21,920 nucleotides of DNA from a virus, in IMG/VR virus record IMGVR_UViG_3300003631_000022, positions 1 to 21,920 of that record; one strand, given 5' to 3'. Shown here piece after piece: positions 5,088 through 21,920 of this stretch. Numbering within the stretch: the stretch's first letter is position 1; the number at the start of each line of letters is the position of its first letter. The notes below the pieces were generated by a model. It had not been told where the DNA came from. It made no database searches and was given only the letters and a program-made list of their open reading frames with translations. The position numbers and the translations under genes are program-made.

Positions 5088-5108
5088 GGTTGGCACTATT
5101 ACGTTTTG
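5076..5108 (+). promoter_or_regulatory. Candidate Bacteroidota-type promoter of the cas-like operon
   Basis: TTTG at 5076-5079 and TACGTTTT at 5100-5107 are separated by 20 bases. This resembles the known Bacteroidota pattern of TTTG near -33 and TAnnTTTG near -7. The segment 5088-5120 is AT-rich within GC-rich surroundings and lies directly after the Mu-F-like stop and before the Csf1-like gene. The upstream element overlaps the end of the Mu-F-like coding region. Seen motif, inferred function. Confidence 0.4.
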
Positions 5109-5151
5109 AGTAGATTCTAGCCTTCTTTCCCGAGGCCACAGCCACCACTGG

Positions 5152-6096: not shown

Positions 6097-7487
6097 CGGA
6101 GGAGAAGCGGGCCTGGTGGCTCCGCATTACGCTGGAGTCACCCCTGAGCCACCACGACCCCGACCAGCAGGACGACTCGAACGTGAGCCTCTTTCGGCGG
6201 CGGGCCCAGCACGTGCCGCTCTCGCAGACGGGCGACCTGCCGGCGCAGGAGGAGGTCGACGCTATTGCAGAGGCGTTCCCGGTCCCCGCTGAGAGCAAGG
6301 CGTTTTTCGACGACCTGGATCTCGTGGAGTTTATCGCGGTGGCCCTCGTCAAGTCGTTCATCACGCGCTACAAGTCACAGGGTGGAGCCGGCATCTTTGA
6401 GGGCATGGACCGCTACCGCCGTCTGGAGGAGCGCATTGGGCAAAGCGCCGTGCAGGCCGGCAGCCTTCGCGGCTTCTGGGGGCACCTCTGCCGGTCACTG
6501 CAGGTGCCGGGAGCGGTGGGCAGCCCCGACCCCGCCCTCCTGCGCCTCTTGAGCGTGGGCAGCCTTGTGGGGCAGCGCGTCCTGTCGGCGCTCGCAGAAA
6601 CGCCCGCGCCCCACGTAATGATGGGGCGGTTTTGGGACGAGCAGGAGCGTGCGGCCGACCCGGACTACGCCTCGAAGGCTGGCGTGGAGGAGGTCAGTGG
6701 CGAGACGGACGTCGTGTCCCTCTCGGCGGGCAGCCTCACCGAAAGCGGCGACACGATCACGGTCGAGGTGCCGCACTACTCGGCCAACAGCCTCAGGCAC
6801 GAGCTGGTGCGGGAGCCGCTCATGTGGCACCTGTTCCAGGCGCTTGGGCTGGAGTTCGATCAGCCGCTCGGCACCCGTACCTCGCTTTTTTACAACGGCG
6901 GCGACCTGAAAGAGAGTGGTACGGCCTCGACCTTCTGGAAGCGCAAGCGGGCCCGGAACGCCTACCCGGGACTCGCTCTGTTGGGTGGGGCGACCGATAC
7001 GTTTCTCCTTGGCGAGTCGAATCTGCGAGTGCATACGTGGCTTCGCTGCAAGGAGAACAACCGCGCCCTCCAGCGGGTCGGGCTGGAGTCCGATGCCTCT
7101 GCCTTTGACATGATCGACCGGCAGACGCACACGCGCCACTCCGGCCGCCTCGGCGGAGACGGGGACGACGACAACCAGATGCTGTACACCTTCGAGACCA
7201 TCGCCCCCGGCGCGGAGATCGTGGCCCGGCTTGGCCTGACGACGTATGCGCAGGACCTGGAGGTGGGCGCCCTCGGGGCGGCCCTCCAGACGTTCCGAGA
7301 GCTGGACATGACGCTCGGCGGGCAGCCCGCCCGCGGCTACGGGAAGATCGGGTTCGAGGTCGTAAAGGGCGAGGACCTGATCGCCCCCGTGCAGGGCTAC
7401 GAGGAATACCTCGACGCGCACGCGGATGAGCTCAAGGACGGCATCATGGACGGCACGCTCTGCAGCGGGGCGGAGGTGATCACATGA
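5964..7487 (+). CDS. csf2: Csf2-like (Cas7 family) RAMP backbone protein
   Basis: Cas7-family proteins polymerise along crRNA and form the backbone of class 1 effectors. This 507-residue protein shows RAMP features: a first strand AWWLRITLESPLSHHD (residues 50-65), NSLRHELVRE (275-284) resembling the x-SLRG-x-xR motif, YTFETIAPGAEIVARLGL (408-425), and a glycine-rich GGQPARGYGKIGFE (452-465). It is much longer than a usual Csf2 (about 330-350 residues). The extra length is an acidic, Gly-rich N-terminal 45 residues and a helical block at about 94-212 that contains a second SLRG (167-170). The ATG at 5964 is the only credible start before residue 50. The gene ends with GGAGGTGATCACATGA, giving a strong ribosome-binding site and a 4-base overlap to the Cas6e-like gene. 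Confidence 0.72.
   Translation: MPDTDTDDLVDGIDDGASDDLFGEPEPPENAGGGGGATDGTVQLAEEKRAWWLRITLESPLSHHDPDQQDDSNVSLFRRRAQHVPLSQTGDLPAQEEVDAIAEAFPVPAESKAFFDDLDLVEFIAVALVKSFITRYKSQGGAGIFEGMDRYRRLEERIGQSAVQAGSLRGFWGHLCRSLQVPGAVGSPDPALLRLLSVGSLVGQRVLSALAETPAPHVMMGRFWDEQERAADPDYASKAGVEEVSGETDVVSLSAGSLTESGDTITVEVPHYSANSLRHELVREPLMWHLFQALGLEFDQPLGTRTSLFYNGGDLKESGTASTFWKRKRARNAYPGLALLGGATDTFLLGESNLRVHTWLRCKENNRALQRVGLESDASAFDMIDRQTHTRHSGRLGGDGDDDNQMLYTFETIAPGAEIVARLGLTTYAQDLEVGALGAALQTFRELDMTLGGQPARGYGKIGFEVVKGEDLIAPVQGYEEYLDAHADELKDGIMDGTLCSGAEVIT
7469..7478 (+). promoter_or_regulatory. Strong Shine-Dalgarno inside the end of csf2, for cas6e
   Basis: GCGGAGGTGATC at the 3' end of csf2 matches the anti-Shine-Dalgarno extended consensus and lies about six bases before the ATG at 7484, which itself overlaps the csf2 stop (ATGA). 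It fixes the start of the Cas6e-like gene and indicates coupled translation. Confidence 0.6.
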
Positions 7488-8194
7488 AGATGCTTCAGTT
7501 GGCGCTCTCGGACTTGGATTCGTTTGTCCGACGCCGCAGCCTGGATGGAGAGAGCAAGGGGTACGTGATGCACTCCGTCCTCACCGAGCTGTTTGGGGAG
7601 GAGGCGCCGCCGGTCTTCGAGTCGCGAGGACATTCCGTGCTTGCCTACTCGGAGCACTCCCTCCAGGAGCTGCGCTCGGTGGCCGAACTCAAAGCACCGC
7701 CACGCCTCTATCGGCAGTGCGTGTGGGGCGACTGCGCCAGCAAGCCGATGCCGTCTGTCCCTGCGGGCGTCGACGTGGGTTTCGAGGTGACGTGTGTACC
7801 GACTGTTCGGAAGGCTTCCGATGGAGTAGGCGAGAATTTTGATGGGGAGCGCCGGGAATGGTACGAGGGGCAGGAGCTGGATGCGTTTCTCTCGGAGGCT
7901 TGGAAGCAAGGGGAAGGCGCCGACGTCGGACGAGAAGAGGTATACCGTGATTGGCTCTCCGGGCGCCTTGATCGAGGCGGGGCGGACTTGGATGAAATGT
8001 CCCTCTCCGATTTTCGCGTGCAAAAAATGACGCGCCGGAATCACGGCAGCGGCTTCCGCACCATCACGCGGCCCGTGGCGACGCTGGCCGGGCGCCTCAC
8101 TGTGACGGGCGGCGACGCGTTTGGGGACCTTCTGCTGTCCGGTGTCGGCCGACACACGGCGTTTGGGTGCGGGATGCTCAAGCTGGAGCCCTGA
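7484..8194 (+). CDS. cas6e: Cas6e-like CRISPR RNA endonuclease
   Basis: Cas6e cuts CRISPR repeat hairpins in pre-crRNA and can remain bound to the 3' stem. This 236-residue protein has the family length and layout. The N-terminal helix GYVMHSVLTELFG (residues 26-38) places Tyr27 and His30 in the same Y-x2-H spacing as the catalytic Tyr and His of Cas6e. SVLAYSE follows near residue 50. A C-terminal block has REEVYRDWLSGRL (about 149-161) and FRVQKMTRRN. The protein ends with the glycine-rich GVGRHTAFGCGMLKLEP (220-236), close to the usual G-x-G-x-x-x-AFGxGLL signature. It appears catalytically intact. It overlaps csf2 by 4 bases and is followed after 1 base by the next gene. Cas6e is normally a type I-E protein, so its presence in a type IV-like operon without an array is unusual. 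Confidence 0.85.
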   Translation: MKMLQLALSDLDSFVRRRSLDGESKGYVMHSVLTELFGEEAPPVFESRGHSVLAYSEHSLQELRSVAELKAPPRLYRQCVWGDCASKPMPSVPAGVDVGFEVTCVPTVRKASDGVGENFDGERREWYEGQELDAFLSEAWKQGEGADVGREEVYRDWLSGRLDRGGADLDEMSLSDFRVQKMTRRNHGSGFRTITRPVATLAGRLTVTGGDAFGDLLLSGVGRHTAFGCGMLKLEP

Positions 8195-8195
8195 C

Positions 8196-8723
8196 ATGCT
8201 ACACCTTTCGGATTGCTACCTCGGACCGACCCCGGTCCTTACGCCTCGCCGGCCACGCGACCCCATCGCCGGCGAGCCAGAGGTCCCTCGGATTTGCGTG
8301 GCCCCCACCCTGTGGGGGTGCCTGCGGGCCTTGGCCGGATGCCGCTACCGGGGTGGGGGGTGGCACATGTACTCGGCGGCGGCCCCGACCCGGCCCCCGT
8401 TCGGGGTTCGTGATGCGCCGGTGACCGGCGAGCGATGGATTCTCACGTCAACGCGATTTCACTATGCGGGATACCTGGAAGAACGCCTATCGGATGCACT
8501 CCTTTCGCGACGCGTTCAAGCGGCGCTGCCAGGAGGCCCGGCGGACGATTGGGGCGTTCCTGGACGACACCCAGCGCCCCTACGTCGCCTTCTCCGGCGG
8601 CAAGGACAGCCTGTGCCTCCTCATCTTGCTGTCGCAGATGGGGGAGGACATCCCCGTTTTCACACAGGGCGACGACCTGGACTGGCCCGAGAAGGAGGCG
8701 TATTGCAAGCGCGTGGTGGCTGA
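8196..8723 (+). CDS. Unknown protein of the cas-like operon; 3' part overlaps cysH
   Basis: The ATG follows the cas6e stop by one base (TGACATG). Residues 1 to about 95 look like a real folded protein: HLSDCYLGPTPVLTPRRP, PRICVAPTLWGCLRAL (31-46), WHMYSAA (56-62), and APVTGERWILTSTRFHYAGY (74-93). This order reminds me of an unnamed family of small phage and plasmid proteins with PR(I/V)C-x-x-P...GCL-x-AL...TGE-x-W. I cannot attach a function. From about 8481 the frame is Pro/Arg/Gly-rich low-quality sequence that is simply the shadow of cysH and continues to 8723. The true end may therefore have been lost by mutation or frameshift, or the genes may really overlap by 260 bases. Tight spacing argues it belongs to the effector operon. 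Confidence 0.55.
   Translation: MLHLSDCYLGPTPVLTPRRPRDPIAGEPEVPRICVAPTLWGCLRALAGCRYRGGGWHMYSAAAPTRPPFGVRDAPVTGERWILTSTRFHYAGYLEERLSDALLSRRVQAALPGGPADDWGVPGRHPAPLRRLLRRQGQPVPPHLAVADGGGHPRFHTGRRPGLAREGGVLQARGG
8302..8318 (+). other. Perfect 7-bp GC hairpin inside the operon, shaped like a Cas6e target
   Basis: CCCCCAC at 8302-8308 and GTGGGGG at 8312-8318 form a perfect stem with a 3-base loop; one G-U pair can extend it. Stem length and the C-run/G-run composition resemble hairpins of type I-E repeats. It lies inside a coding region 108 bases downstream of cas6e and occurs once, so it is not an array. It may be chance in GC-rich coding DNA. Confidence 0.3.
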
Positions 8724-9204
8724 GCTGGGGTTCAGTGATTACGAGTACAGGCACTCAGAGGTGAGCGCCGCCGAGCAGGTGGCGGCTGGGGAGGAGCGCG
8801 TCCGCGGCACCTTTAGCCATGTGATCGAGGGATACGTCGAGGATCGGGGGCGGGATGGCGTCCTGATGGGGCTCCGAAAGGAGGAAGCCCCTGGGCGGGA
8901 AATGCTCCGCATTACGAAGGGGAAGACCTACGAGACCAAAGACGGACTGACCCGCTGCATCCCGCTAGCCGACTGGGGCGGGAAAGACGTGTTCGGTCTG
9001 ATCGTCTCGACCGGGACCGAGTACATCCATGTCTACGACAACGACGACAACCGCCCGCCGCACGAGATCCGGTTTTCCTGGCCGGTGAATCCTCGCTTCT
9101 ACCACCGCGATGCGGCCAACAGTGCCGCGTGGCTCCGACGAAACTACCCGGAGTTCTACCGGCGCCTCGCCAAGCGTATTCCCGCACTCAACGACCACAC
9201 CTGA
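8464..9204 (+). CDS. cysH: CysH/PAPS-reductase-like ATP pyrophosphatase
   Basis: This 246-residue protein belongs to the adenine-nucleotide alpha-hydrolase/PAPS reductase superfamily. The PP-loop is VAFSGGKDSLCLL at residues 41-53. A region with VLMGLRKEEAPGRE near residues 132-146 and CIPLADWGGKDVFG near 165-178 matches the usual R-x-x-E and P-x-x-x-W-x-x-x-DV motifs of CysH-like phage and island proteins. The C-terminal Cys motif (ECGxH) needed by assimilatory PAPS reductases is not present, so a sulfonucleotide reductase role is doubtful. A nucleotide- or RNA/DNA-modifying role is possible. CysH-like genes are a known companion of type IV-B CRISPR-Cas loci, and here it sits between cas6e/orf and csf3. 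Start ATG 8464 has no obvious ribosome-binding site. Confidence 0.82.
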   Translation: MRDTWKNAYRMHSFRDAFKRRCQEARRTIGAFLDDTQRPYVAFSGGKDSLCLLILLSQMGEDIPVFTQGDDLDWPEKEAYCKRVVAELGFSDYEYRHSEVSAAEQVAAGEERVRGTFSHVIEGYVEDRGRDGVLMGLRKEEAPGREMLRITKGKTYETKDGLTRCIPLADWGGKDVFGLIVSTGTEYIHVYDNDDNRPPHEIRFSWPVNPRFYHRDAANSAAWLRRNYPEFYRRLAKRIPALNDHT

Positions 9205-9207
9205 TCC

Positions 9208-10023
9208 ATGCCTGACACTTACTTCGACGCCGTCGACGCCCTCAATGCCCGACTGGAGACCGATGGGGACCCGGACGCCACCCGGCCGGAGCCCGACCCA
9301 ACGCGGCCGACGCTGATCTCAGAGCTGGAGCCGTACTGGGACCGCTACACCGACGAGGCCTACCAAGCTGACATGGAGCCGATGAGGGTCACGGTCGAAG
9401 TCGACGGCATCATGGCCGGCTACGATAACCCCACCCTCGACGGCATTCTCGCCCGAATGGTGACCGACGAGGCCCTGTCGGGCGACACCCTCGACGGTCG
9501 CCACTCGCCGTATCTCCTGCCGGTGCCGCTCTACCAGCTGTGGACCGATCCAGAGACAGGGCTACCGCTCTGGGCCTGCAACCACTATCAGCCGGCGGGC
9601 CCGAACCAAGAGCTCGCCTACTACTGGCACAAGCGCGCCATCCGCCCCGACCACGCGAAGAAGCAGTCGGGGCAGAAGACGCCGTACACGCGAAAGGGGC
9701 GGTACAAGGAAAAGCGGCGCCCGGTCCCTGCCCAGACCGCAAAGGTGTGGTGGGCCGACTGCATCGGCGACCTGGAGGAGGTAGAGCGACTTCTGGTGCA
9801 GGGGCTCGATGCGATGGGCAAAAAGCGAAAGGCGCTCGTGCGGTCGATCGACGCCAAAGAGATTGACCGGTTTCAGATGGACCGACCGGTCCCGCTCACG
9901 TATTTCGACGATGATACGGAGGTCGAGGAGCATGGGTACATGGGCTGGACCCCGCCGTACTGGCCGGGAGTGCCGCAGGTTCAGGCCGAATGTGGGGTAC
10001 CAGGCACGAAACAACATCAGTGA
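9208..10023 (+). CDS. csf3: Csf3-like (Cas5 family) protein of a type IV effector
   Basis: Cas5-family Csf3 binds the crRNA 5' handle in type IV complexes. This 271-residue protein shows features I associate with Csf3: TLDGILARMV (77-86), LLPVPLYQLW (103-112), YYWHKRAI (138-145), GDLEEVERLLVQGLDAMGKK (187-206), RPVPLTY (226-232) and GWTPPYW (246-252). The first 55 residues are an acidic, Pro-rich extension typical of halophile proteins. It starts three bases after cysH and is followed after one base by a 67-residue gene. Together with the Csf1- and Csf2-like genes it completes the minimal type IV core. Assignment is by motif memory; an HMM comparison would settle it. Confidence 0.68.
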   Translation: MPDTYFDAVDALNARLETDGDPDATRPEPDPTRPTLISELEPYWDRYTDEAYQADMEPMRVTVEVDGIMAGYDNPTLDGILARMVTDEALSGDTLDGRHSPYLLPVPLYQLWTDPETGLPLWACNHYQPAGPNQELAYYWHKRAIRPDHAKKQSGQKTPYTRKGRYKEKRRPVPAQTAKVWWADCIGDLEEVERLLVQGLDAMGKKRKALVRSIDAKEIDRFQMDRPVPLTYFDDDTEVEEHGYMGWTPPYWPGVPQVQAECGVPGTKQHQ

Positions 10024-10024
10024 C

Positions 10025-10228
10025 ATGAACGGGTCACAAAGGGACGAAACCACCATCGCCCTCGAAACCAGAAACTGGCGCGTTGAGCGGGGAGCAGCCG
10101 GGTGGGGCATTCGGCACCGGGGCTCCTGGTACGTCGACCCGGTACAGGGCCGATCGCTGCTCGGGACCGTGTGGAGAGCGTGGACGATCTACACGGACCC
10201 AACCAACCCAGCCAATAAGGATCGATAG
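10025..10228 (+). CDS. 67-residue protein at the end of the cas-like operon
   Basis: The ATG at 10025 follows the csf3 stop by one base (TGACATG), the same junction as between cas6e and its neighbour. The product is Trp-rich for its size (Trp at 19, 27, 35, 50 and 53), including NWRVERGAAGWGIRHRGSWY, and may form a small beta-rich domain. No family is recognised. It could be a small accessory of the effector or a phage regulator; it is not obviously the helical Cas11 small subunit. Its stop codon lies within the candidate terminator hairpin, so it would be the last gene of the operon. Confidence 0.55.
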   Translation: MNGSQRDETTIALETRNWRVERGAAGWGIRHRGSWYVDPVQGRSLLGTVWRAWTIYTDPTNPANKDR

Positions 10229-10250
10229 GATCTCATTATCGGTCCTTATT
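10214..10250 (+). terminator. Hairpin at the end of the cas-like operon
   Basis: A 14-base arm at 10214-10227 pairs with 10237-10250 around a 9-base loop, perfect apart from one G-U pair. The 3' arm ends in CCTTATT and is followed by CTTG, so it is a plausible but not textbook intrinsic terminator. It overlaps the stop of the 67-residue gene. It would separate this operon from the prohead protease gene. Confidence 0.55.
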
Positions 10251-10275
10251 CTTGACCCTGCACTTGGGTCGAAAC

Positions 10276-10304
10276 TTGACGCCCCGCCGCCCCGTGTTTA
10301 GGTT
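10276..10304 (+). promoter_or_regulatory. Candidate sigma-70-like promoter before the prohead protease
   Basis: TTGACG at 10276-10281 and TAGGTT at 10299-10304 are 17 bases apart, the ideal spacing for a primary-sigma promoter. TAGGTTATG also partly fits the Bacteroidota TAnnTTTG element. It lies after the terminator hairpin and before a structured leader. Confidence 0.4.
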
Positions 10305-10361
10305 ATGAGTTGACCCGCCGGAGCACTTCCGGCACACATTTTTGGTACCCCGCTTTTGCAG

Positions 10362-10423
10362 AGGGCGGCTTTCCTGACTGGCACGTGCGTCGTGCCCGTG
10401 AGGAGGGCTGCCCTTTTTCTTTT
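10362..10423 (+). terminator. Branched hairpin with T-run: terminator or attenuator
   Basis: The outer arms 10362-10369 and 10407-10414 (8 pairs, one G-U) enclose an inner 6-bp hairpin (10380-10396), and a T-rich run follows at 10414-10423. It lies between the candidate promoter and the protease start, so it could attenuate that transcript or stop read-through from upstream. Confidence 0.4.
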
Positions 10424-10443
10424 GCCTCAGCTCGCGTTTTCAG

Positions 10444-12888
10444 ATGCCCTGGACCATTGCCCAAGGCCATCCCAGCTGTGACGACGACCAGGTCGGCGTC
10501 GTGAAGGAGGACGGCGACGGCAATGCCGACATGTCCGAGCTGGAGGGCTGCCACGACACGGAAAGCGAAGCGGAGGATCAGATTGCCGCCCTGGAGGCGT
10601 CGGAAGACGATCGGTCGGTCGTTGAGGTCCTCGCCGACACTCTAGACAGCAAACGCGACGTACATCGCGTCCTGGCCCGCGTCGTGAACCGTGCGGCGGA
10701 GGATGTGGACCTGATGCCGCCGTCGGCCGTCGTGAACGCCGCTGAGGCCGCTCTGGAGGCGAAAGAAGAGTACGACGACCTGTCCGACTGCGGGAGCGGG
10801 CGCGGGGAGCAACGGGCCGAGCAGATCGTGGGCGGCGACCTGAGCCCGGCCGACTTCGTGACCCGAGAAAATGGAACGCCCATCCCGGCCTATTTAACAA
10901 GCCACGAGGAAGACGTGTCCGCCGAGGGCACCCCGACCGGCTGGACCGAGGAGGAGTGGACCGATGGTTGCGGAAACGTGCAGTATGCCCTCTGGGGTGG
11001 GACCGGCACGGGCACCGGCCTGGCCTGGGCGCAGCAGACCGCCAACGCGATTGCACGCGAAATGGACGAGGACGAGCCGTATCCAAACGCATCGAACCGA
11101 ATCCCAACTGCCATGCCCCAGCGCGAGATGAGCCTTTCCGACCGCGTCAGTGCGGTCCGAATGGAGTTCTACAATGGATACGACGACCCGGACGGCACCG
11201 GCGCCTGGTGGTACGTGGAGGAGGTGTACGAGGCCCGCATCATCGCGATGGCGGACCACGAGGGTGGCACGCTCTACGAGATCGGGTACGAGATGGAGGA
11301 GGCACCCGACGGGGTGCAGGTCACCTTTGCGCCCGAGCAGGAGTGGACGGTCGTCGTGCAAGAGTACGTGCCGGCTGAGGAGGAAATGGAGCGCCTTCGC
11401 TCGCAAAAGCGGGAGCTCACCGGCGCCGGCACGGCAGAGGAGCCCGGCTGCGGGTGCGGCCAGCGAGCCGAGGCGAGCGACCTGTCAGAAGGGACGATCG
11501 TCACCTGGGGGCCCGACAACGCCCCGCGCTACGGTGCCGTGCAAGAGGTGCACACGAGCGGGGAGGTGACCTCCGATACGGGCGCCGACGACGAGACGAC
11601 CATGGAGGCGAGCGACGACAACCCCGTCATCGAAATCCAGCACTGGAGCTACGACTCAGAAGAGGAGGAGTGGATGGAGACAAATACTGTCACCGTCCAC
11701 CGACCGGACAACCTCGAAATCCTCGACGAACTGCCGGAGCGCAGCCTACAGCGGCACGCCCGCGGCGCGGAGCTTGCCGACGAGATGAGCGACATGGTGG
11801 AAGACATGGCGGAGGGCGGCGACATGTCCACCGCCGACGTGCGGGAGGAGCTGGCCGACGCGGCTGGCATCTCCACGTCGACCGTCGCCAGCATCCTGAG
11901 TGGCGAAATTCAATGCCCGCCCATCGAGCGCCTAGAGGGCTTTGCGCAGGTGCTCGACGTGCCGACTGAGGAGCTCATCGAGACCGCCCGAGAGGACGGC
12001 TGCAGCTACGGCGGGGACGGCAACCGCAGTGCGGAAGAGGGAGACTTTCGGCGCTTCCGTGAGCGAGTGACGGATGGGGAGGGCGCCCTCGACGAAGACA
12101 TTTTGCCGTCGGACAACTACCGCTCGACCTCGACGGACTTCCGTCAGGCCGACGACGAGACCTACACCTTCGAGATCAACAACGACGAGGTCGACCGTCA
12201 CCGGACCATCATCGATCCGGAGGGTGGGGACGTCGATCACTTCCGCGAGAACAACCCTGTCGTGCTCTGGCAGCACGGCATTGATCCAATGCGCGGGGAG
12301 CTGCCCATCGGGCGCGTCGTGCAACTCAACTACAACGAGAGCCGCAACGCCTGGATTGCCCGCATCCGCTTCTTCGAGGACGAGTTCAGCCAGACCGTTC
12401 GCCGGATGGTGGACGAGGGCTTTCTGAACATGTCCTCGATTCAGTTCGACCCCAACGACTCCGAAATGCGCGAGACGGACGCCGGTCGGGTGCGGGCGTA
12501 CACCGACTGGGAGCTCCTGGAGGTGTCGATCGTCTCGATTGGGTCGAACCGCGGGGCGCTCCACGAGCGCATGCTGCGGGAGATGGCGCCCGGCGAGAAC
12601 GAGGTCTACGAGGAGATGCAAGACGCATTTATCGAGTTTCTGCAGGGCTTTCGGGAGGTGCAGAAAGCCCAGGTAGAGCAGATGCGCGCTCTGGCCACGG
12701 CCAGCGCAGCGCCCGACGAGGTCCCTGCCGGTGCCACGGCTCCGGCAGGCGCTAAGGACGGTCCTGCGAGCGAGCGCAACGGGGACACTGGTGGCCCCAA
12801 CGACGACGCCCAGCGGTCAGACTTGACCACAGAGGAGCTCGTTGAAATCACCGTTCGCACTGTACTTCGACAGCAAGGAAGATTGTAG
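10444..12888 (+). CDS. Large multidomain prohead protease
   Basis: The C-terminal third is an HK97-type (S78) prohead maturation protease that trims the capsid before DNA packaging. It spans about residues 570-720, with VVLWQHGIDP (His near 611), NMSSIQF (Ser near 664-665) and WELLEVSIVSIGSN. At 814 residues it is several times the usual length. Upstream are an N-terminal piece PWTIAQGHPSC...GCHDTE...QIAALEASE (1-54), which is common in phage structural proteins, and a region near 155-205 with GNVQYALWGG. A beta-rich segment near 222-315 (FYNGYDDPDGTGAWWYVEEV) follows, then a Tudor/SH3-like segment at about 346-431 (GTIVTWGPDNAPRYGAVQEV). A helix-turn-helix-like segment is at about 467-505 (ELADAAGISTSTVASILSGE). 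The last 100 residues are a coiled, acidic, probably scaffold-like tail. It lies three bases before the capsid gene, as expected. Confidence 0.8.
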   Translation: MPWTIAQGHPSCDDDQVGVVKEDGDGNADMSELEGCHDTESEAEDQIAALEASEDDRSVVEVLADTLDSKRDVHRVLARVVNRAAEDVDLMPPSAVVNAAEAALEAKEEYDDLSDCGSGRGEQRAEQIVGGDLSPADFVTRENGTPIPAYLTSHEEDVSAEGTPTGWTEEEWTDGCGNVQYALWGGTGTGTGLAWAQQTANAIAREMDEDEPYPNASNRIPTAMPQREMSLSDRVSAVRMEFYNGYDDPDGTGAWWYVEEVYEARIIAMADHEGGTLYEIGYEMEEAPDGVQVTFAPEQEWTVVVQEYVPAEEEMERLRSQKRELTGAGTAEEPGCGCGQRAEASDLSEGTIVTWGPDNAPRYGAVQEVHTSGEVTSDTGADDETTMEASDDNPVIEIQHWSYDSEEEEWMETNTVTVHRPDNLEILDELPERSLQRHARGAELADEMSDMVEDMAEGGDMSTADVREELADAAGISTSTVASILSGEIQCPPIERLEGFAQVLDVPTEELIETAREDGCSYGGDGNRSAEEGDFRRFRERVTDGEGALDEDILPSDNYRSTSTDFRQADDETYTFEINNDEVDRHRTIIDPEGGDVDHFRENNPVVLWQHGIDPMRGELPIGRVVQLNYNESRNAWIARIRFFEDEFSQTVRRMVDEGFLNMSSIQFDPNDSEMRETDAGRVRAYTDWELLEVSIVSIGSNRGALHERMLREMAPGENEVYEEMQDAFIEFLQGFREVQKAQVEQMRALATASAAPDEVPAGATAPAGAKDGPASERNGDTGGPNDDAQRSDLTTEELVEITVRTVLRQQGRL

Positions 12889-14228: not shown

Positions 14229-14765
14229 ATGGGTACGCTTCCCTACACCTACAAAATGAAGACGAACGGCTCCACGCACGGCCAGGAGAGCAGCCGCCTG
14301 CACAGCTGGGAGCCAGGGGCAGAGTACCGCGTGCCCGAGGACGTGCCGGACGGGGAGTTTCGGCACCTGAACCCCAACGACTACGACATCAAGGAACGCA
14401 CCGACGCCATGGGCGGCCGCACCAAAAACACCGCTATGTCGGGCAAGACGACCGACATGTCCGGCAAAGACACGTCGATGAAGACCGAGGCCTCGGGCGC
14501 CGAGGAGGACACGGGCCCCGACGACAGCGAAGACGCCTCGGACGAAGAAGACCCGGGCGGCTTATTCGGGCAAGAGAGCCCGGAGTGGACGCTTGGCGAG
14601 AGCCACGCGGCCGGCTTCTACTTTGCCCTCTACGGCGGGGAGCGCGTCGAGGACGAGAGCAGCCGGAGCGGCTACAACACAGTCGGCCGCGGCAAGGAAG
14701 CAGCCGAGGCCGAGATTGACCGCCGCAACGAGGAGGGCCTCACGCCCTCGGAGGTCGTCGGATGA
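14229..14765 (+). CDS. Acidic 178-residue phage protein of unknown role
   Basis: I chose the ATG at 14229, after the terminator, because upstream in-frame sequence is shadow of the capsid gene. The N-terminal 60 residues (WEPGAEYRVPEDVPDGEFRH and NPNDYDIKER) resemble small phage head or head-tail proteins that carry a 'PG-x-EY-x-VP' motif. A low-complexity Met/Ser/Lys stretch with the repeat MSGKTTDMSGKDTSM follows (about 70-84). An Asp/Glu-rich linker at about 90-108 comes next, and then a C-terminal domain with SHAAGFYFALYGGERV and GRGKEAAEAEIDRRN. The stop overlaps the sulfotransferase ATG (ATGA). No function is assigned; a decoration or linker protein is possible from its place after the capsid. 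Confidence 0.65.
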   Translation: MGTLPYTYKMKTNGSTHGQESSRLHSWEPGAEYRVPEDVPDGEFRHLNPNDYDIKERTDAMGGRTKNTAMSGKTTDMSGKDTSMKTEASGAEEDTGPDDSEDASDEEDPGGLFGQESPEWTLGESHAAGFYFALYGGERVEDESSRSGYNTVGRGKEAAEAEIDRRNEEGLTPSEVVG

Positions 14766-15379
14766 GCTCTGACCCGGGCACGTTCGTCGTCGGCACCGGA
14801 ACGGGCCGATGCGGTACCTCGTCGCTTGCCGCCCTCCTCAGCGCGCAAAACGGCGCCGACGTCACCCACGAGCGGTGGCGCAGCCGCGTGCCCTGGACCG
14901 AAGGGCAGCACTGGGCCCGCTCCCTCGTCGAGGAGTGCGAGGAGAGCTTGGAAGGCGGCGCCCGAGTTGCCGGGGACGTGGCGTTTCAGTGGCAATGGTA
15001 CGCCGAGGGGCTGATCGAGGCCGGCGCCCGGATCGTCTACCTCCTGCGGAACTGCGAGGAGGTCGTGGAGAGCTTCATCCGGAAAAGCGGTCCGCGCAAC
15101 AACTGGGAGCCGTGGCCAGAACTCGACGAAGACGAGCGGTTCCGCTTTCACGAGTGCTTCCCGTCGTTTGCGGCCGAGAGCAAGCGGGAGGCGCTCCGCA
15201 TGTACTGGCGCCTGTCGGTTGGCCGGGCTCGCGACCTTAACGCTCGGCACGATGCCTTCGAGATCTTCCCGACGGAGGCGCTCAACAGCGAGGGTGGAGT
15301 AAAGGGCATCCTCGACCACTTGCAGGTCCCAACAGCCGCCCGGACGATCGAAACGGGGATTCGAGCCAACACCACGTAA
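14762..15379 (+). CDS. Sulfotransferase-like P-loop protein
   Basis: Sulfotransferases move a sulfuryl group from PAPS to an acceptor such as a sugar. This 205-residue protein starts with a strand and 5'-phosphosulfate-binding loop, FVVGTGTGRCGTSSLAALL (residues 8-26). It later has IVYLLRNCEEVVESF (91-105), matching the 3'-phosphate-binding motif R...S (Arg96, Ser104). It is shorter than most cellular enzymes. It overlaps the preceding gene by ATGA and is followed by two glycosyltransferase-like genes, suggesting modification of a glycan on the virion or host surface. The same phage carries a CysH-like gene, another PAPS-related fold, but no functional link is shown. Confidence 0.78.
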   Translation: MSSDPGTFVVGTGTGRCGTSSLAALLSAQNGADVTHERWRSRVPWTEGQHWARSLVEECEESLEGGARVAGDVAFQWQWYAEGLIEAGARIVYLLRNCEEVVESFIRKSGPRNNWEPWPELDEDERFRFHECFPSFAAESKREALRMYWRLSVGRARDLNARHDAFEIFPTEALNSEGGVKGILDHLQVPTAARTIETGIRANTT

Positions 15380-15393
15380 TCAGAACGGCATTC

Positions 15394-16194
15394 ATGCCAG
15401 ACCCTGTAGAGGTCAGCTTATCGGAAGAGGCGATGGACGCCGTCAAGGGCGGTGCGGCCCAGGAGCAGTCGATTGCCGTCGTTATCCCGGTGCACGAGAC
15501 GCACCTCGCGTACCTGCCGGCAGCGATCGAGAGCGTGCTGCAGCTTGGCGAGGCGCCCGACGAACTCGTCATCGTGGACGACGGGCAGTGTGGCGTGCCG
15601 GACATCTGGAACGAGTACATCGATCAGCTCGAAAAGCAGGGCATTCTGTCCCGCTACCGGTTTACGGCAGAGCAGCGCGGCGCAGCTGCCGCCCGCAACC
15701 TCGGGATCGAAGCCACACGCACCGACTGGGTCCTCTGCCTGGACGCCGACGATCGCCTCAAACCCGAGGCCCTGACGGCCTGGCGGGATGCTCTCACAGA
15801 GACCCCGAACGCCGACGTCGTCGTGTTTGGCTACGAGGCCTTTGGGACGGGCCTGAACGGGGAGCCGGCGACCGGCACCCGCACCTACGACGAGCACGGG
15901 TTTGGTCTTGTGGAAGCGTACCGCTCGAACAAGCGCCTCGCCTGCGCAGCAAGCCCATTTCGGCGGCGGCTGTGGGAGTGGCATCCGTACCGACGGGGCT
16001 TCGGCCTCTTTGAAGACACGGCCTTCTGGCTCGACTGCGCACGGCACGGGGCCTACTTCGCCTCGGTGCAAGAGCCGCTTGTTGACGTGCGCTACCACGA
16101 ACAGCGCACCAGCTTCACGCGTCCGGACGCCGAGCGCGAGCAGAATCGCCGGAAACTCGACCAGATCGCCGAAGAGGCGGAGGCGACCGCATGA
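15394..16194 (+). CDS. Family 2 glycosyltransferase (GT-A fold)
   Basis: This 266-residue protein has the GT2 hallmarks: IAVVIPVHET (residues 27-36), LVIVDDG (58-64), RGAAAARNLGIE (95-106) and the metal/sugar-nucleotide motif CLDADD (115-120). Later it has EDTAFWLD, where the catalytic base of such enzymes often lies. It would transfer a sugar from a nucleotide sugar to an unknown acceptor. The first 19 residues (MPDPVEVSLSEEAMDAVKG) are not part of the GT fold and closely resemble the start of the tape measure gene in this window. It lies 14 bases after the sulfotransferase and overlaps the next gene by 4 bases. Confidence 0.88.
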   Translation: MPDPVEVSLSEEAMDAVKGGAAQEQSIAVVIPVHETHLAYLPAAIESVLQLGEAPDELVIVDDGQCGVPDIWNEYIDQLEKQGILSRYRFTAEQRGAAAARNLGIEATRTDWVLCLDADDRLKPEALTAWRDALTETPNADVVVFGYEAFGTGLNGEPATGTRTYDEHGFGLVEAYRSNKRLACAASPFRRRLWEWHPYRRGFGLFEDTAFWLDCARHGAYFASVQEPLVDVRYHEQRTSFTRPDAEREQNRRKLDQIAEEAEATA

Positions 16195-17543
16195 CATCAG
16201 TTCCGGACGAACACAAGGTCGACGTCTACGCCGCGGAGGGTCACTTCGAGGATCACCTTCAGCCGGTGTGGAATGAGCTCCCCGAGGGGCGCCGCGGCAT
16301 CTTTGCCACGGGGCTCGATGAGCTACAGGACCGCGGCGATCGGCGGCACCTCTGCCTCGTCGCCAGCGGTGGCAACCGTCGGCACGCCACGTCGGTCGGC
16401 TATCCGCGCGTGGTGCTGATGCAGCACGGCGCCGGGCAGTCGTACCTGGGCGGGGGCGGGGCGCCGCACCTCAGCTACGCCGGCTTTCCACACCACCGGG
16501 GCCTGGTCGGCATTCTGCACCCCGGCCCGGACCCGGTCGAGAAGGACGGCCGGGCCTACCCTGATCTCGCCGACAAGGGGCGCATCCAGGCGATCGGCAT
16601 GCCCAAGCTAGCCCCGTGGCGGGCCGGTGACAAAGGCAGGGCGCCGGACTGGCGCCGCGAGGACCGGCCGTTTCGAGTGGCGGTGAGCTTTCACTGGGAC
16701 TGCCGGGTGTGCCCGGAGACGCGTACCGCCCTCGGGCACTACGAGCGGGCGTTTGCCGACTGGAAGGACGCCCTCGAGGAGGAAGGCATCGAGTTGGTGG
16801 GGCACAGCCATCCGCGCATCCGCTCGCGTGCAAAATTCGCGTTCGAGGGGGCGGGCGTGCCTTTCCTCGGTGATTTCGAGCAGGTGCTGCAGTGGTGCGA
16901 CGCCTACGCGGTCGACAATTCAAGCACCCTGTTCGAGTTTGCGGCCTCCGTGCCCAAGGCGGCCGACCGCACCGCCCGGCCGGTGATTGTGCTCAACAGC
17001 CCGCACTACCGCCGGGGCGTGGAGCACGGACTCCGGTTCTGGCAGGCCTCCGGCATCGGCCCCAACGTGAACCGGCCCGAAGACTTCGTGGCGGCGGTGA
17101 AGGGGCTCCGACGCGACTTCGGCACGTGGTGCACGAAAGCGGGCGAGGTGTTGACCGGCGTCTACGCCTACCGCGACGGCAAGGCCGCCGAGCGGGCCGT
17201 CGGCTACGTGCAAGAGTGGGCGGAGGAAACCGCATCCGGGCACAGCGAGCGGCGGCACTGGCTCCGGGCGCACAAGACCTTTGCCAACGCCGGCTACTTG
17301 GCCCACCGCGACGGCGCGACCGTCGAGTCCGGCGAGCGCTTTTACGTCTGGGGAAAGGACGCGGCCAAACGCCTCGCGGAAGAGGGGCACGCCGAGCGCA
17401 TTGACCTGCAAGCCCTCACCGTGGACACGCTCCGGGGAGAAGCGCGCCGCCTCGGCATCGAGGGCCGCTCGTCGATGCGAAAGACCGAGCTGATCGATGC
17501 CCTACAACAAAGCGCCCCAACGGGGGAGGTGAGCCATGCTTGA
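16191..17543 (+). CDS. CDP-glycerol-transferase-like (GT-B type) protein with SAP/Rho-N-like C-terminus
   Basis: This 450-residue protein resembles CDP-glycerol:polyol glycerophosphotransferases and related GT-B enzymes. It has VVLMQHGAGQSY (residues 74-85), GHSHPRIRS near 203, and VDNSSTLFEFAA near 241, where teichoic-acid-type enzymes have their donor-binding D-x-SS-x-x-x-E/D. After a linker, the C-terminus changes character. GERFYVWGKDAAKRLAEEGHA (about 380-400) resembles a small phage head-protein domain, and residues 408-440 (LTVDTLRGEARRLGIEG...KTELIDAL) look like a SAP/Rho-N helical motif. It overlaps the GT2 gene by ATGA and the connector gene by 8 bases. The acceptor is unknown. Confidence 0.65.
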   Translation: MTSVPDEHKVDVYAAEGHFEDHLQPVWNELPEGRRGIFATGLDELQDRGDRRHLCLVASGGNRRHATSVGYPRVVLMQHGAGQSYLGGGGAPHLSYAGFPHHRGLVGILHPGPDPVEKDGRAYPDLADKGRIQAIGMPKLAPWRAGDKGRAPDWRREDRPFRVAVSFHWDCRVCPETRTALGHYERAFADWKDALEEEGIELVGHSHPRIRSRAKFAFEGAGVPFLGDFEQVLQWCDAYAVDNSSTLFEFAASVPKAADRTARPVIVLNSPHYRRGVEHGLRFWQASGIGPNVNRPEDFVAAVKGLRRDFGTWCTKAGEVLTGVYAYRDGKAAERAVGYVQEWAEETASGHSERRHWLRAHKTFANAGYLAHRDGATVESGERFYVWGKDAAKRLAEEGHAERIDLQALTVDTLRGEARRLGIEGRSSMRKTELIDALQQSAPTGEVSHA

Positions 17544-18261
17544 CTACACGGCCCTTACGACCCCGGCGCGCATCTTGAGCGTAGCGCTCGGCGACGGCGT
17601 GAGTCAGTCGCTGGTAGAGGAGGTGCTCACCAAGCGCGGGGACTTCTACGACGAAGCCATTCGCACGATCGAGGCCGTGACCGGCGAGATTGAGAGCCAC
17701 CTACAGCGTCCCCTCATCGTCCGCAAAAAAACGTGGTACCCCGATCATTTTGCCTGGAACGACACCCCGCCGCGACCGGCGCCGGAGGGCTACGCCATCA
17801 TGGCCTACCTCCGGTACTGGCCGCTCGTGGAGGTGGTCTCCACGCAGCCAACCGTAAACCTTGACCCGAAGGTGCAGGTGCGAGGTGAGCGCCTCGTGTT
17901 TGCGCCAAAGCGTCTGGGCGCCCTGACGGCGTTCTTCGGCTACCGCCGGTTCGATCAGGGCCTTGGCCCGCCTGGCAGCGGCGACGACTACACGCTGGAC
18001 CTGACGGCGCAGAGCGGCCTCTCTGGGCTTTCGGCGCTACCACCGATCCTGCCGGGCGAGATCGAGGACGTGTGCATCAAGGTCTGCCTCGCCCGCCTGC
18101 AAGAGCAGATCCAGGGCCTCGTGGGGATTGCCCGCAAGGACAAGCGATTCGGCGGCGAGATGGGGCAGAGCCTGACCGTCGAGCGCAAAGAGATGGACGA
18201 CGAGTACGAAGACCGGCAGATGAGCCGCCTCGACGAGCACGCCTTTACGCCGAGCGTGTGA
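17536..18261 (+). CDS. Head-tail connector (gp6-like adaptor) protein
   Basis: This 241-residue protein is placed and patterned like the HK97 gp6-type adaptor that docks under the portal. The N-terminal helical part TLTTP-type start (YTALTTPARILSVALGDG) leads into a helix with IEAVTGEIESHLQRPLIVRK (about 53-72), the typical 'Ie-x-x-l-gR-l' region of such connectors. The middle has VSTQPTVNLDPKVQV-like strands and the C-terminus has IEDVCIKVCLARLQEQI. A good Shine-Dalgarno (GGGGGAGGTGAGCC) lies just before ATG 17536, inside the end of the preceding gene. Confidence 0.65.
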   Translation: MLDYTALTTPARILSVALGDGVSQSLVEEVLTKRGDFYDEAIRTIEAVTGEIESHLQRPLIVRKKTWYPDHFAWNDTPPRPAPEGYAIMAYLRYWPLVEVVSTQPTVNLDPKVQVRGERLVFAPKRLGALTAFFGYRRFDQGLGPPGSGDDYTLDLTAQSGLSGLSALPPILPGEIEDVCIKVCLARLQEQIQGLVGIARKDKRFGGEMGQSLTVERKEMDDEYEDRQMSRLDEHAFTPSV

Positions 18262-18286
18262 CGGGACACGCCTACAGCCATGACTC

Positions 18287-18895
18287 ATGCAGGTACGCGA
18301 CAACGTACAGCAGTGGATCGACGCCCTCGACATCGAGGAGCAGATCGTCCGCGAGGTGCTCGCGCCGACGGTCAACGCCTCGATCGACACGTTCGAGGGG
18401 CTGGCCACCGGCACGTACATGCGAGAGGCCGGGCTGGGGGCCCGCGACACGCCCAACACGCAGGCCGGCCCCGGCTCGCTCCGGGTCGTGCAGGGGCGCC
18501 TCTCACGGGCCGTGCGGGGGCAGCGCGGGCCGGAGGGCAAGGAGTTTACCGATCAGGGGCCGGTCGTTCGGCAGATGCAGGTGTTCTGGAAGCGGGTCAT
18601 TCAGGTCCCGTACGCTGGCGCCCACGAGGAAGGCGGCTCCTGGACCGTGCCGGCGACCGAAAAGATGGAGGGGTACTTCTGGCACCGATTCTACGACAGC
18701 GGAGAGCAGGAAAAGTGGAAGCGCCTGGCCCTGTGGGTGCGGGGTATTTCCTCCTTTCAGGTGACCGTGGAGGCGCGTCCCTACGTGGGGCCCGCCCTCA
18801 AGGACGACGAGTTCAAGCCGCACGAAATCGGCCGCGACAACCTCATTGATCTACTGATCAGCCTCGATCCGCCCGACGCGGTGCTGCGCGAGTAG
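18287..18895 (+). CDS. Tail completion / virion morphogenesis-like protein
   Basis: This 202-residue protein follows the connector gene and shows features of the HK97 gp10 / Mu virion morphogenesis group of neck proteins. It has a helical N-terminus, a GSLR (residues 64-67) leading into a strand, then VPYAGAHEEGGSW (about 106-118), and close to the end RPYVGPALKDDE (about 164-175). The YA-x-x-HE-x-G and RP(Y/F)-x-GPAL pair is typical. Such proteins close the head-tail junction. The ATG at 18287 is preceded by no strong ribosome-binding site, and another ATG lies a few bases upstream in a different frame. Confidence 0.65.
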   Translation: MQVRDNVQQWIDALDIEEQIVREVLAPTVNASIDTFEGLATGTYMREAGLGARDTPNTQAGPGSLRVVQGRLSRAVRGQRGPEGKEFTDQGPVVRQMQVFWKRVIQVPYAGAHEEGGSWTVPATEKMEGYFWHRFYDSGEQEKWKRLALWVRGISSFQVTVEARPYVGPALKDDEFKPHEIGRDNLIDLLISLDPPDAVLRE

Positions 18896-18922: not shown

Positions 18923-19495
18923 ATGCCGACCGAAAAGCTCCCCATGATGCAAAAGCGGGATCTCCTGAAGGAGGAGGTGACCCGCCTGGCCCAAGAGCAC
19001 GGCGTGAGCCTGAACGTCGTGTACTGGCCGATCGGGGAGCTGGTGAACATTCAGACGGAGCTCGACCGCAAAAAGCTGATGGGGCGCCCGGTGCGGTACT
19101 GCCGCATCCGCAACCTTTCGGCTTCGACCTCGGACACCGAACCGCAAACCGCCGGGGGCAACACTGACTGGCAGAACGCCAACGTCAAGACGACGCACCG
19201 CTTTCGGGTCAAGCTGCTGTTTGAGTGGGACGTGGCCGAAAGCTACGACCTAAGCAGCCAGAAGGACTGGGACGAGCTCACCGAGAGCCAGTCCCTCGAC
19301 AACGAATACGAACTGCCGATCGGCATCCTGCCGTTTTTTCGGCAGGCACCAACGCTGGCGCCGGAGAGCCAAGAACACCTGACGTGCCAGTGCACGCGCC
19401 CGCAAAACGAAACGCTCCCGAACGTCCCCCAGTGGCAAAACGAGCTGGAGCTCTACACGCACTACCTGAGTTTTGAACTTGGGCTGACCGGATAG
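18923..19495 (+). CDS. Probable tail terminator-position protein
   Basis: This 190-residue protein lies between the neck protein and the tail tube candidate, the usual place of the tail terminator that caps the tube. It contains an alternation of strands (THRFRVKLLFEWDVAESYDL, about 93-112; ELELYTHYLSFELGL near the end) and a helical N-terminus. The last strand pair is the type of pattern seen in tail terminators. I do not recognise a specific family motif, so the assignment is positional. ATG 18923 is chosen as the first start after the preceding stop. Confidence 0.5.
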   Translation: MPTEKLPMMQKRDLLKEEVTRLAQEHGVSLNVVYWPIGELVNIQTELDRKKLMGRPVRYCRIRNLSASTSDTEPQTAGGNTDWQNANVKTTHRFRVKLLFEWDVAESYDLSSQKDWDELTESQSLDNEYELPIGILPFFRQAPTLAPESQEHLTCQCTRPQNETLPNVPQWQNELELYTHYLSFELGLTG

Positions 19496-20681: not shown

Positions 20682-21272
20682 ATGGAAGCCACTGTCGGCC
20701 AGTCATTTGACACAGAGCACCCGGTGTGGGACCTGACGTTCGCCGTCCGGGACGATCTGGAGGTGACCCTCCGCCCCCCGACCGCCGAGCGCCTGCGGGT
20801 GGTCGACATGACCCATTTGTTGCGCACGGACCTTCCCGCCGAGGACAAGATGCGCATCGTGACCCGGTACATGGGCCTCATTCCGCGCCGTGACGTAGAC
20901 GGGGACATCACCGCCGTGCAGCTGCCCGGTGGCAAGGAGCGACGGCTGAACCAGGTGACTGGCCTGTGGGCGCATCGCCGGGTTTGTGAGATCGCCACGA
21001 CCGCCGAGAAGGGCAGCCTGACCAGCGAGGAGGCAACTGCGCGCATTGATCCGGACGAGATTTCGCACGCAAATGCGACGTGGGGACTCTTAGCCGTCGG
21101 CGGCACAGAGGCCCTCTCTATCCACACCGAGATGACGGCCGCAGAGGCGCGAGACTACGTCCAAGAGGTGGCCGTGGCCGGCTACCGGGCGCGCCATCTG
21201 TCAGAGTCCGTCGCGATGGTCGCGCGCCGCCTCGCCGGCTTCCTCAATGACCAGCAACGCGATAAAGCATAA
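20682..21272 (+). CDS. Unknown tail-region protein upstream of tape measure
   Basis: This 196-residue protein begins with a beta-rich region (VWDLTFAVRDDLEVTLRPPT, residues 15-34) resembling the N-terminal part of some tail assembly chaperones. It continues as helices (AEDKMRIVTRYMGLIPRRD near 58-76) and ends in YVQEVAVAGYRARHLSESVA near 161-180. Function is not recognised. Its TAA stop shares its last A with the ATG of the tape measure gene, suggesting coupled translation, as expected for a tail chaperone acting on the tape measure protein. Confidence 0.55.
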   Translation: MEATVGQSFDTEHPVWDLTFAVRDDLEVTLRPPTAERLRVVDMTHLLRTDLPAEDKMRIVTRYMGLIPRRDVDGDITAVQLPGGKERRLNQVTGLWAHRRVCEIATTAEKGSLTSEEATARIDPDEISHANATWGLLAVGGTEALSIHTEMTAAEARDYVQEVAVAGYRARHLSESVAMVARRLAGFLNDQQRDKA

Positions 21273-21920
21273 TGGCCGCACCTGTAGAGGTTGGCTTATC
21301 GGTGGACGCCTCTGGTGCCGTGAAGGGCACGAAGAACGCCCAAGGCGCAATGGAGGACCTAGACAACGTCCTCGATGACGTCGCCGCGTCTGGAGAAGCG
21401 ACGTCACAAACCTTTGACGAGGTCCAGGAGAGCGCGCTCAGTGCGTCGAAGCGCATGGAGACTTTGGAGGCCGAGGCCGAGGGCGGGGCCCGGTCGATGG
21501 ACCAGTTGCGCGGTTCGGCCGAGCAGGGGGTGCGGTCGATGGACGAGCTAGGAAGCGAGTCTCGGGAGGCGGCGTCGGACGTGGAGCGCTCCATGCAAGG
21601 CATTGCCTCCGGCTCAGAAGTGGCCGAAAGCAGCCTGCGGGACCTGTCGCAGGCACAGACTCGCGTTCGTGGCACGACCGGGTCCCTCGGCTCCAGTGCT
21701 AGCTCGACCGCTGCGCAGCTCAGCGTCGACCTTACGCAAAGCGCACAAGACGCGGCGTTTGGCATCGAAAACCTGGCCGCGTCGGCGCCTTTCCTGACGG
21801 AGCAGTTCACACGGTTGCAATCGCAGACCGGCGGGACGACCGGAGCATTGTCGGCGCTCTTTAGCGCGATGAAGGGGCCGACGGGCGTGATCGCGGCGTT
21901 CACACTCCTGCTTACGTTCA
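21272..21920 (+). CDS. Tape measure protein, N-terminal part (runs off window)
   Basis: The open frame starts at ATG 21272 and continues without a stop to the window edge (216 codons). It begins APVEVGLSVDASGAVKGTKN, typical of tape measure starts, where a short strand precedes a long helical region (AQGAMEDLDNVLDDV). It is rich in Ala, Ser, Glu and Gln with coiled-coil character. An internal repeat RSMDQL/RSMDEL occurs at about residues 73-78 and 89-94. Near the edge a more hydrophobic segment, GPTGVIAAFTLLLTF, begins, as in the membrane-associated parts of these proteins. The protein sets tail length and is ejected during infection. Confidence 0.85.
   Translation, partial: MAAPVEVGLSVDASGAVKGTKNAQGAMEDLDNVLDDVAASGEATSQTFDEVQESALSASKRMETLEAEAEGGARSMDQLRGSAEQGVRSMDELGSESREAASDVERSMQGIASGSEVAESSLRDLSQAQTRVRGTTGSLGSSASSTAAQLSVDLTQSAQDAAFGIENLAASAPFLTEQFTRLQSQTGGTTGALSALFSAMKGPTGVIAAFTLLLTF

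Follow-up and report, generated by a model that had tools for sequence, protein, structure and literature searches.

Partial gene duplications and the capture of the 5'-end of one gene by another belong to the general processes known from the mosaic genomes of phages. Short repeats tied to gene starts occur in Cluster K mycobacteriophages, where the Start-Associated Sequences (SAS), according to the part of the source that presents them, consist of about 13 bp located upstream of genes at many sites of the genome (PMC3203893). With respect to tail tape measure proteins, the passages of a preprint devoted to phage 80alpha describe the N-termini of the tape measure trimer as each giving a β-strand to a sheet formed with the tail completion protein in the neck, and then going on as helices, residues 1-37 being modelled (PMC11661146). 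For phage TP901-1, the relevant passages state that the N-terminal 154 residues of the tape measure protein are needed for infectivity, and hypothesise that this N-terminus touches the head-tail connecting region (PMC5099701). Glycans decorating the major capsid proteins of phages Che8 and Rita are mentioned as cited work in a passage of PMC11256854.

The window, i.e., the whole stretch of DNA analysed here, is a linear viral record of 21,920 bases in which capsid, glycosyltransferase (GT) and tape measure genes are recognised by profile, and a portal-like gene by a tblastn match to one Streptomyces phage portal. The sugar-enzyme genes, located between the capsid gene and the gene starting at 17536, comprise the GT gene (15394-16194), a sulfotransferase-like gene directly upstream (14762-15379; Pfam Sulfotransfer_3, E 0.011, below the curated cut-off) and a putative second sugar-transfer enzyme (16191-17543). 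Together with the 5' part of the tape measure gene, which is cut by the end of the window (21272-21919; PHROG 167/1535/1272, E 1.8e-5 to 6e-4), all of them, and the features discussed within them, lie on the plus strand. Of the 186 phage records matched by the tape measure gene, 182 are Salinibacter M8 phages; among the matches listed, the match involves residues 159-203 and reaches about 49% with a long M8 phage tail gene. The sulfotransferase-like gene matched 184 records, all Salinibacter M8 phages (about 31% in the 10 of 184 matches listed). From 17536 onward, five genes and the tape measure gene are collinear with those of M8 phage 15_1, in which a sulfotransferase-like gene and a GT, subsequently called the M8 slot GT, similarly occur upstream of the 17536 homologue. 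The genes at 17536-18895 gave no family match in profile searches and are named connector by position only. On the same positional grounds, 17536-18261, 18287-18895 and 18923-19495 are candidate neck or tail completion genes. Owing to these matches and to the collinear genes, the host of the window phage is probably Salinibacter or a relative. That sulfotransferase-like homologues occur in 184 M8 records also hints at sulfated decoration as a possibly widespread trait of this phage group.

The GT and tape measure genes resemble each other at their very beginning. Bases 15403-15424 of the GT gene (CCTGTAGAGGTCAGCTTATCGG) and 21281-21302 of the tape measure gene (CCTGTAGAGGTTGGCTTATCGG) are identical at 20 of 22 positions, which confirms an earlier note on this DNA that had counted two differences and read PVEV-x-LS at codons 4-10 of both genes. 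Each copy consists of codons 4-10 plus one base of an ORF started by ATG, frame and codon numbers being identical in both genes. A degenerate search of the window with up to 3 mismatches, in line with the proposal of the same note to look for further copies, retrieved these two sites only, for a mean of 0.00 expected from 100 shuffles. Among the 253 pairs of gene starts offered by 23 genes of the window, the GT/tape measure pair ranks first with 20/22, the next best reaching 17/22, and the best pair never exceeded 18/22 when each gene's own codons were shuffled (n=300). The shared codons CCT, GTA and TTA are rare, accounting for 7.7%, 7.3% and 1.1% of the codons of their amino acids, respectively. 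TTA, common to both genes at codon 9, represents 6 of 536 Leu codons in a gene set that includes a few overlapping or approximate ORFs, and a slightly revised gene set likewise holds six TTA codons, two of which are codon 9 of the GT and of the tape measure gene. The weaker likeness that had been noticed as far as AVKG is also real: it reaches codon 19, with 11 of 16 residues identical over codons 4-19, and extends over 57 nt at 72% nucleotide identity. It is thus hardly open to doubt that both gene starts derive from a common ancestor.

Scanning viral contigs for the 22-base pattern returned none (the scan may omit the window's own record). An exact 20-base pattern was found, among the viral contigs scanned, in a sister phage described below (there as contig L009) and in contig L010; the latter match is antisense, occurs by chance in an AT-rich unrelated gene, and was rejected as a true copy. 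A tblastn search of phages with the first 26 residues of the GT and the first 40 residues of the tape measure protein gave nothing at E values up to 10.

The GT, a protein of 266 aa, is predicted to be a family 2 (GT-A) glycosyltransferase, taking into account a PF00535 match (E 7.1e-22) of 78.6 bits over residues 29-182, which passes the curated GT2 cut-off of 23.3, and a match of PHROG 9549 that covers residues 27-260. The GT profiles thus start at residues 27-29, after the residues shared with the tape measure protein, as the earlier note had stated. The motif LCLDADDRLKP, of the DxD type and conserved in the window GT and the GT of the sister phage, is presumably the metal-binding DxD. Ahead of the fold lie a tape-measure-like N-terminal extension of 20 codons (15394-15453; MPDPVEVSLSEEAMDAVKGG), which aligns with codons 1-19 of the tape measure gene and with the GT extension of the sister phage, and a variable linker of six codons (21-26; 15454-15471), none of whose 6 residues is identical in the sister phage.

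The VEV-x-LS motif occurs in none of the 12 GT homologues examined, namely 11 GT loci (7 aligned, and 4 devoid of an annotated gene and seen as tblastn alignments) together with the M8 slot GT, which brings the alignment to 8. One haloarchaeal GT possesses a long N-terminus unrelated to the extension. Among the phage matches of the GT (60 of 82 listed), 57 align from residue 18 or later and 3 begin at query residue 15 or lower; the plasmid matches considered were the 15 of 48 listed. In the GTs from MT839775, MT839480, IME_EF3 and Sinorhizobium the local alignment enters the extension, yet none of them contains the motif, and the one Flavobacteriaceae GT recovered by a GT-alignment scan of genome contigs matches residues 27-143 only. 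The alignment of homologues advocated earlier therefore leads to the same picture as the profiles: judged from sequence comparison, the extension is an addition outside the GT fold. A single-protein scan of viral contigs with the GT gave no relatives. The structure model of the GT is poor (mean pLDDT 50.5, with residues 1-22 of the extension region under 50) and assigns, with low confidence, a helix to residues 11-18. A sequence search of solved structures yielded a spurious sybody on top and seven weak matches, named teichoic acid biosynthesis protein F, chondroitin synthase and two other glycosyltransferases.

The extension also occurs in a sister phage, represented by a contig of 10,886 bases (L003) whose portal and capsid are 90% and 95% identical, respectively, to those of the window. 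This contig breaks off within the orthologous GT; the two proteins share 60% identity over 131 residues, and the fragment matches PF00535 with 51.1 bits. The GT of the sister phage starts with MPNPVEVGLSVEALDEVKGG, i.e., with the same extension, and is nearer to the start of the window tape measure protein, PVEVGLSVDASGAVKG, than the window GT is. At codons 8 and 11 it shares G and V with the window tape measure protein, where the window GT has S and E. In a BLASTN comparison of the two records, the GT start of the sister phage even pairs with the tape measure start of the window (60 bases, 77%), and the sequence CATAATG occurs once per record, at precisely these two starts. The presence of the extension in an orthologue means that it is not peculiar to one contig and, most simply, that it was already present before the two phages separated. 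When viral contigs were scanned with the portal and the capsid, this contig alone was recovered; the GT-alignment scan gave it again (as L006), and a scan of genome contigs with the capsid gave nothing. No GT homologue was found that carries this N-terminus without a related tape measure start, the tape measure gene of the sister phage being located outside its 10.9 kb contig.

Besides these differences in the GT, a block of about 5 kb (5152-10023) present in the window is absent from the sister contig and encodes a type IV CRISPR-Cas-like effector set. It comprises Csf2/Cas7 (5964-7487; PADLOC E 1.4e-31), a Cas6e-type protein (7484-8194; E 2.1e-25), a CysH/PAPS reductase (8464-9204; Pfam E 3e-14) and Csf3/Cas5 (9208-10023; E 2.5e-22), the NCBIfam matches to Csf2, Csf3 and Cse3 remaining below the curated cut-offs. 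Profile searches gave no match for 5152-5964, and no direct repeats of at least 20 nt (exact seed 14), hence no CRISPR array, were seen at 5000-10500. The starts of the Csf2-like and Csf3-like genes (5963-5994 and 9207-9238) are themselves alike, both reading ATGCCTGAyAC (MPDT), and with a best stretch of 17/22 they rank directly behind the GT/tape measure pair among the gene starts of the window.

The direction of the transfer can be approached from the M8 phages. The tape measure protein of Salinibacter ruber M8 phages starts with MPNTVEVQMQLDDSGVVQRI and carries a similar motif (MPNTVEVQMQLDDSGVVQ); the 184 M8 records, at least 99% identical over the query, count as about one tape measure sequence. 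The M8 slot GT begins with MVDQIAHIIPTIG, devoid of the extension. Because the M8 tape measure protein has the motif and the M8 slot GT lacks the extension, the motif very probably belonged to tape measure genes before it moved onto the GT. When compared in a fixed register with the gene starts of phage 15_1 (58 of the 59 annotated, leaving out the first, which is 5'-incomplete), the window GT, the window tape measure protein and the GT of the sister phage all have their best match in the 15_1 tape measure start, with 5, 7 and 6 of 19 residues, respectively. The N-terminal likeness to the M8 protein rests on global alignment and fixed register, since BLASTP of the window and M8 tape measure proteins recovered residues 143-203 only and not the N-terminus. 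When shifts are allowed, an unrelated M8 start (40710) scores 31 against the GT start of the sister phage, versus 28 for the M8 tape measure start. Shifts were likewise allowed in a comparison with the tape measure starts of lambda, HK97, Flavobacterium 11b, Dagobah and M8; two of these genes, from 11b and Dagobah, are annotated as hypothetical and were picked by similarity or position. Of 109 control starts, 3 scored as high as the window GT and 4 as high as the GT of the sister phage, and none reached the window tape measure start. Within another M8 gene, residues 3-39 of the GT also had a match, which was not significant (E 0.18). A contig retrieved by the tape measure alignment scan (L011) contains a gene start that resembles the M8 tape measure start. 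A single-protein scan of viral contigs for relatives of the tape measure protein gave nothing, and no solved relative of it was found by sequence, the two weak matches being sc-apCC-6-SLLA and the ribosome-associated protein oga1.

Divergence between the two GT genes indicates how the extension has been treated by selection. Over the extension (codons 2-20) pN is 0.14 and pS 0.65, over the linker (codons 21-26) they amount to 0.65 and 0.75, and over the GT body (codons 27-131) to 0.29 and 0.60. Amino-acid change is therefore lower in the extension than in the linker (Fisher p 6e-4) and in the body (p 0.04, both on rounded counts), a signal drawn from about 20 codons of two GT sequences, one of them a fragment. 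Owing to the low pN of the extension, at a place where synonymous sites diverge as elsewhere, the extension has probably been kept for a function exerted at the protein level. For codons 4-19, the tape measure and GT genes differ with a pS of 0.42-0.45 and a pN of 0.16-0.18, and the two GT genes with a pS of 0.52 and a pN of 0.14. These pS values, alike within and between phages, suggest that the capture and the separation of the two phages are of roughly the same age.

Taken as a whole, the data argue for a single old capture of the 5'-end of the tape measure gene, retained as a functional peptide, and we consider this the likely history, with some reserve. An ancestor of the window phage and the sister phage would have gained a GT gene in which a copy of the opening ~60 bases of the tape measure gene either took the place of the original 5'-end or was fused to it. 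With this copy would have come a start codon and some 19 codons, and hence an N-terminal peptide of the tape measure type on the GT. The earlier note had left the choice between such a capture, which it placed at the possible moment of insertion, and a shared N-terminal signal or translation-start element; the capture has gained from the position of the extension outside the fold, the likeness to the M8 tape measure protein and the occurrence in the sister phage, while the start element has lost ground. A shared N-terminal peptide signal is also possible, and the scarcity of amino-acid changes in the extension speaks for it.

As to what the peptide does, docking on the virion or the tail is put forward tentatively, by analogy. 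The captured piece consists of the strand-like PVEVxLS followed by the start of a helix, and would match the N-terminal part of a tape measure protein. The extension might thus let the GT bind the same kind of partner as the tape measure protein, or the assembling tail or neck, and the docked GT could then glycosylate virion proteins at the assembly site.

Among the alternatives, the one that survives best, though we find it unlikely, holds that the GT took the tape measure start by recombination merely as a working translation start, the peptide being idle and free to drift. Such a capture would bring its own ATG; the GT of the sister phage shows a TAATG stop-start overlap, as found at the tape measure gene, and the extension looks unstructured in the (poor) GT model. 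A drifting peptide is difficult to reconcile, however, with an extension that changes less than the enzyme body next to a linker that varies freely, and in the M8 slot GT the domain addition discussed below is internal and not terminal.

It is very unlikely that the resemblance of the proteins is a by-product of a translation-start, regulatory or recombination sequence shared inside the genes as DNA or RNA. Codons 4-10 are conserved against the sister phage at 19 of 21 bases, yet the same level is reached by 4 of 99 seven-codon windows in the GT body. The shared residues keep their codon in 5 of 6 cases in codons 4-10 versus 31 of 61 in the body (Fisher p 0.21), and no Shine-Dalgarno sequence is visible by eye at either start. 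Against such an element, the stretch is present in 0 of the 21 other gene starts of the window, codons 2-20 have accumulated as much synonymous change as the body, and scanning viral contigs for the 20-base pattern gave the sister phage and the chance antisense match only. Moreover, at the M8 tape measure start the VEV residues are retained, whereas just 14-15 of the 22 bases agree, no better than at several other starts compared with the window GT. A translation-start element was rejected on the basis of the other starts, the synonymous sites and the M8 bases, and a constraint on the protein fits the divergence better than a DNA or RNA element.

Even less probable are copies kept alike by gene conversion, or a movement from the GT to the tape measure gene. 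The similar pS of codons 4-19 between the two genes (0.45) and between the two GTs (0.52) could be read in this sense, but a pS of 0.42-0.45 speaks against recent homogenisation, and recent gene conversion was rejected accordingly. The reverse direction is opposed by the M8 phages, with their motif in the tape measure protein and a slot GT that lacks the extension. Chance or convergence, conceivable for a short stretch rich in common residues (V, E, S, L, A, G, K), is effectively refuted by the same codon numbers and rare codons, by 0 of 300 codon shuffles reaching 20/22, and by the recurrence of the extension in the sister phage.

Related additions are seen in two other putative sugar enzymes of this gene region. 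The M8 slot GT and, more weakly, the 16191-17543 protein near its C-terminus contain a domain of ~45 residues shared with the small head-locus protein 15_1_41. The M8 slot GT (15_1_40, L004 7240-8358) scores 23.0 bits with PF00535, against a cut-off of 23.3 (E 8.5e-5), and its residues 229-271 are 46% identical (E 2e-8) to the N-terminal domain of the product of the next gene, 15_1_41 (L004 8368-8712). The putative second sugar-transfer enzyme of the window, named after a very weak match to CDP-glycerol glycerophosphotransferase (PF04464, E 0.17, below the cut-off), contains a copy of the same domain at residues 358-404 (17262-17402), with 36% over 47 aa and E values of 1e-3 and 3e-4 in the two directions of a five-sequence comparison (0.005 in another comparison), followed by a C-terminal Rho_N domain (E 6.7e-7). 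The C-terminal part of 15_1_41, in turn, corresponds (55% over 74 aa) to the product of the gene just after the window capsid gene (14229-14765). No match between the N-terminal parts of these two proteins was reported in the comparison, which suggests a domain exchange.

Three enzymes, the GT, 15_1_40 and the putative 16191-17543 enzyme, accordingly bear pieces related to genes of the morphogenesis locus. Since the last two, as putative sugar enzymes, carry a domain of a head-locus protein, a pattern is possible, and the pieces would fit a role as addressing tags; a shuffling of domains devoid of function might also explain their presence on sugar enzymes. It is a rather doubtful idea that Salinibacter-type phages mark their virion-decorating enzymes with pieces of virion-assembly genes, as addresses to the assembling tail and head. 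The GT would then carry the neck-docking strand of the tape measure protein, and 15_1_40 and the 16191-17543 enzyme the domain of the head-locus protein 15_1_41, a putative virion or assembly protein.

Should the extension indeed serve as an address, it would reveal the means by which a phage brings a soluble sugar enzyme to the particles it makes, in the form of a short and testable peptide of about 19 residues. Even a plain capture would be a clear case in which the start of a tail gene became that of an unrelated enzyme and recurs in a sister phage; such a case has a bearing on how accessory genes find their place within the densely packed structural operons of phages. Within the literature searched, a fusion of this type between a GT and a tape measure protein was not found in print.

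Compared to the systems mentioned at the beginning, the locus resembles 5'-end capture in mosaic phages in that a short gene start precedes an unrelated reading frame of the same genome, and differs from the generic case in that the piece on the GT occurs in two phages, shows low amino-acid change and leads from a tail gene to an enzyme. Like the SAS, as these are presented in the part of PMC3203893 devoted to them, it is a short repeat tied to gene starts within one phage; unlike them, it is restricted to two genes of the window, lies inside the coding sequence and is translated in the same frame, so that, instead of a repeat upstream of many gene starts, two sites were found, both inside genes. 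The captured piece corresponds to the part of the tape measure protein that, in the passages on 80alpha, forms the β-strand and helix (PMC11661146), although 80alpha is a distant phage and the piece sits on an enzyme in the window phage. The mycobacteriophages, a group with virion-glycosylating members, hold the best phage matches of the GT among the matches listed. In one of them, Minerva, the gene next to the GT match is labelled glycosyltransferase with the note 'head-to-tail connector', and gp17, the one example examined, starts directly at the GT fold, in contrast to the extended GT of the window. The capture of a gene start is thus of a known kind, and the donor, the recipient and the retention of the piece are the new part.
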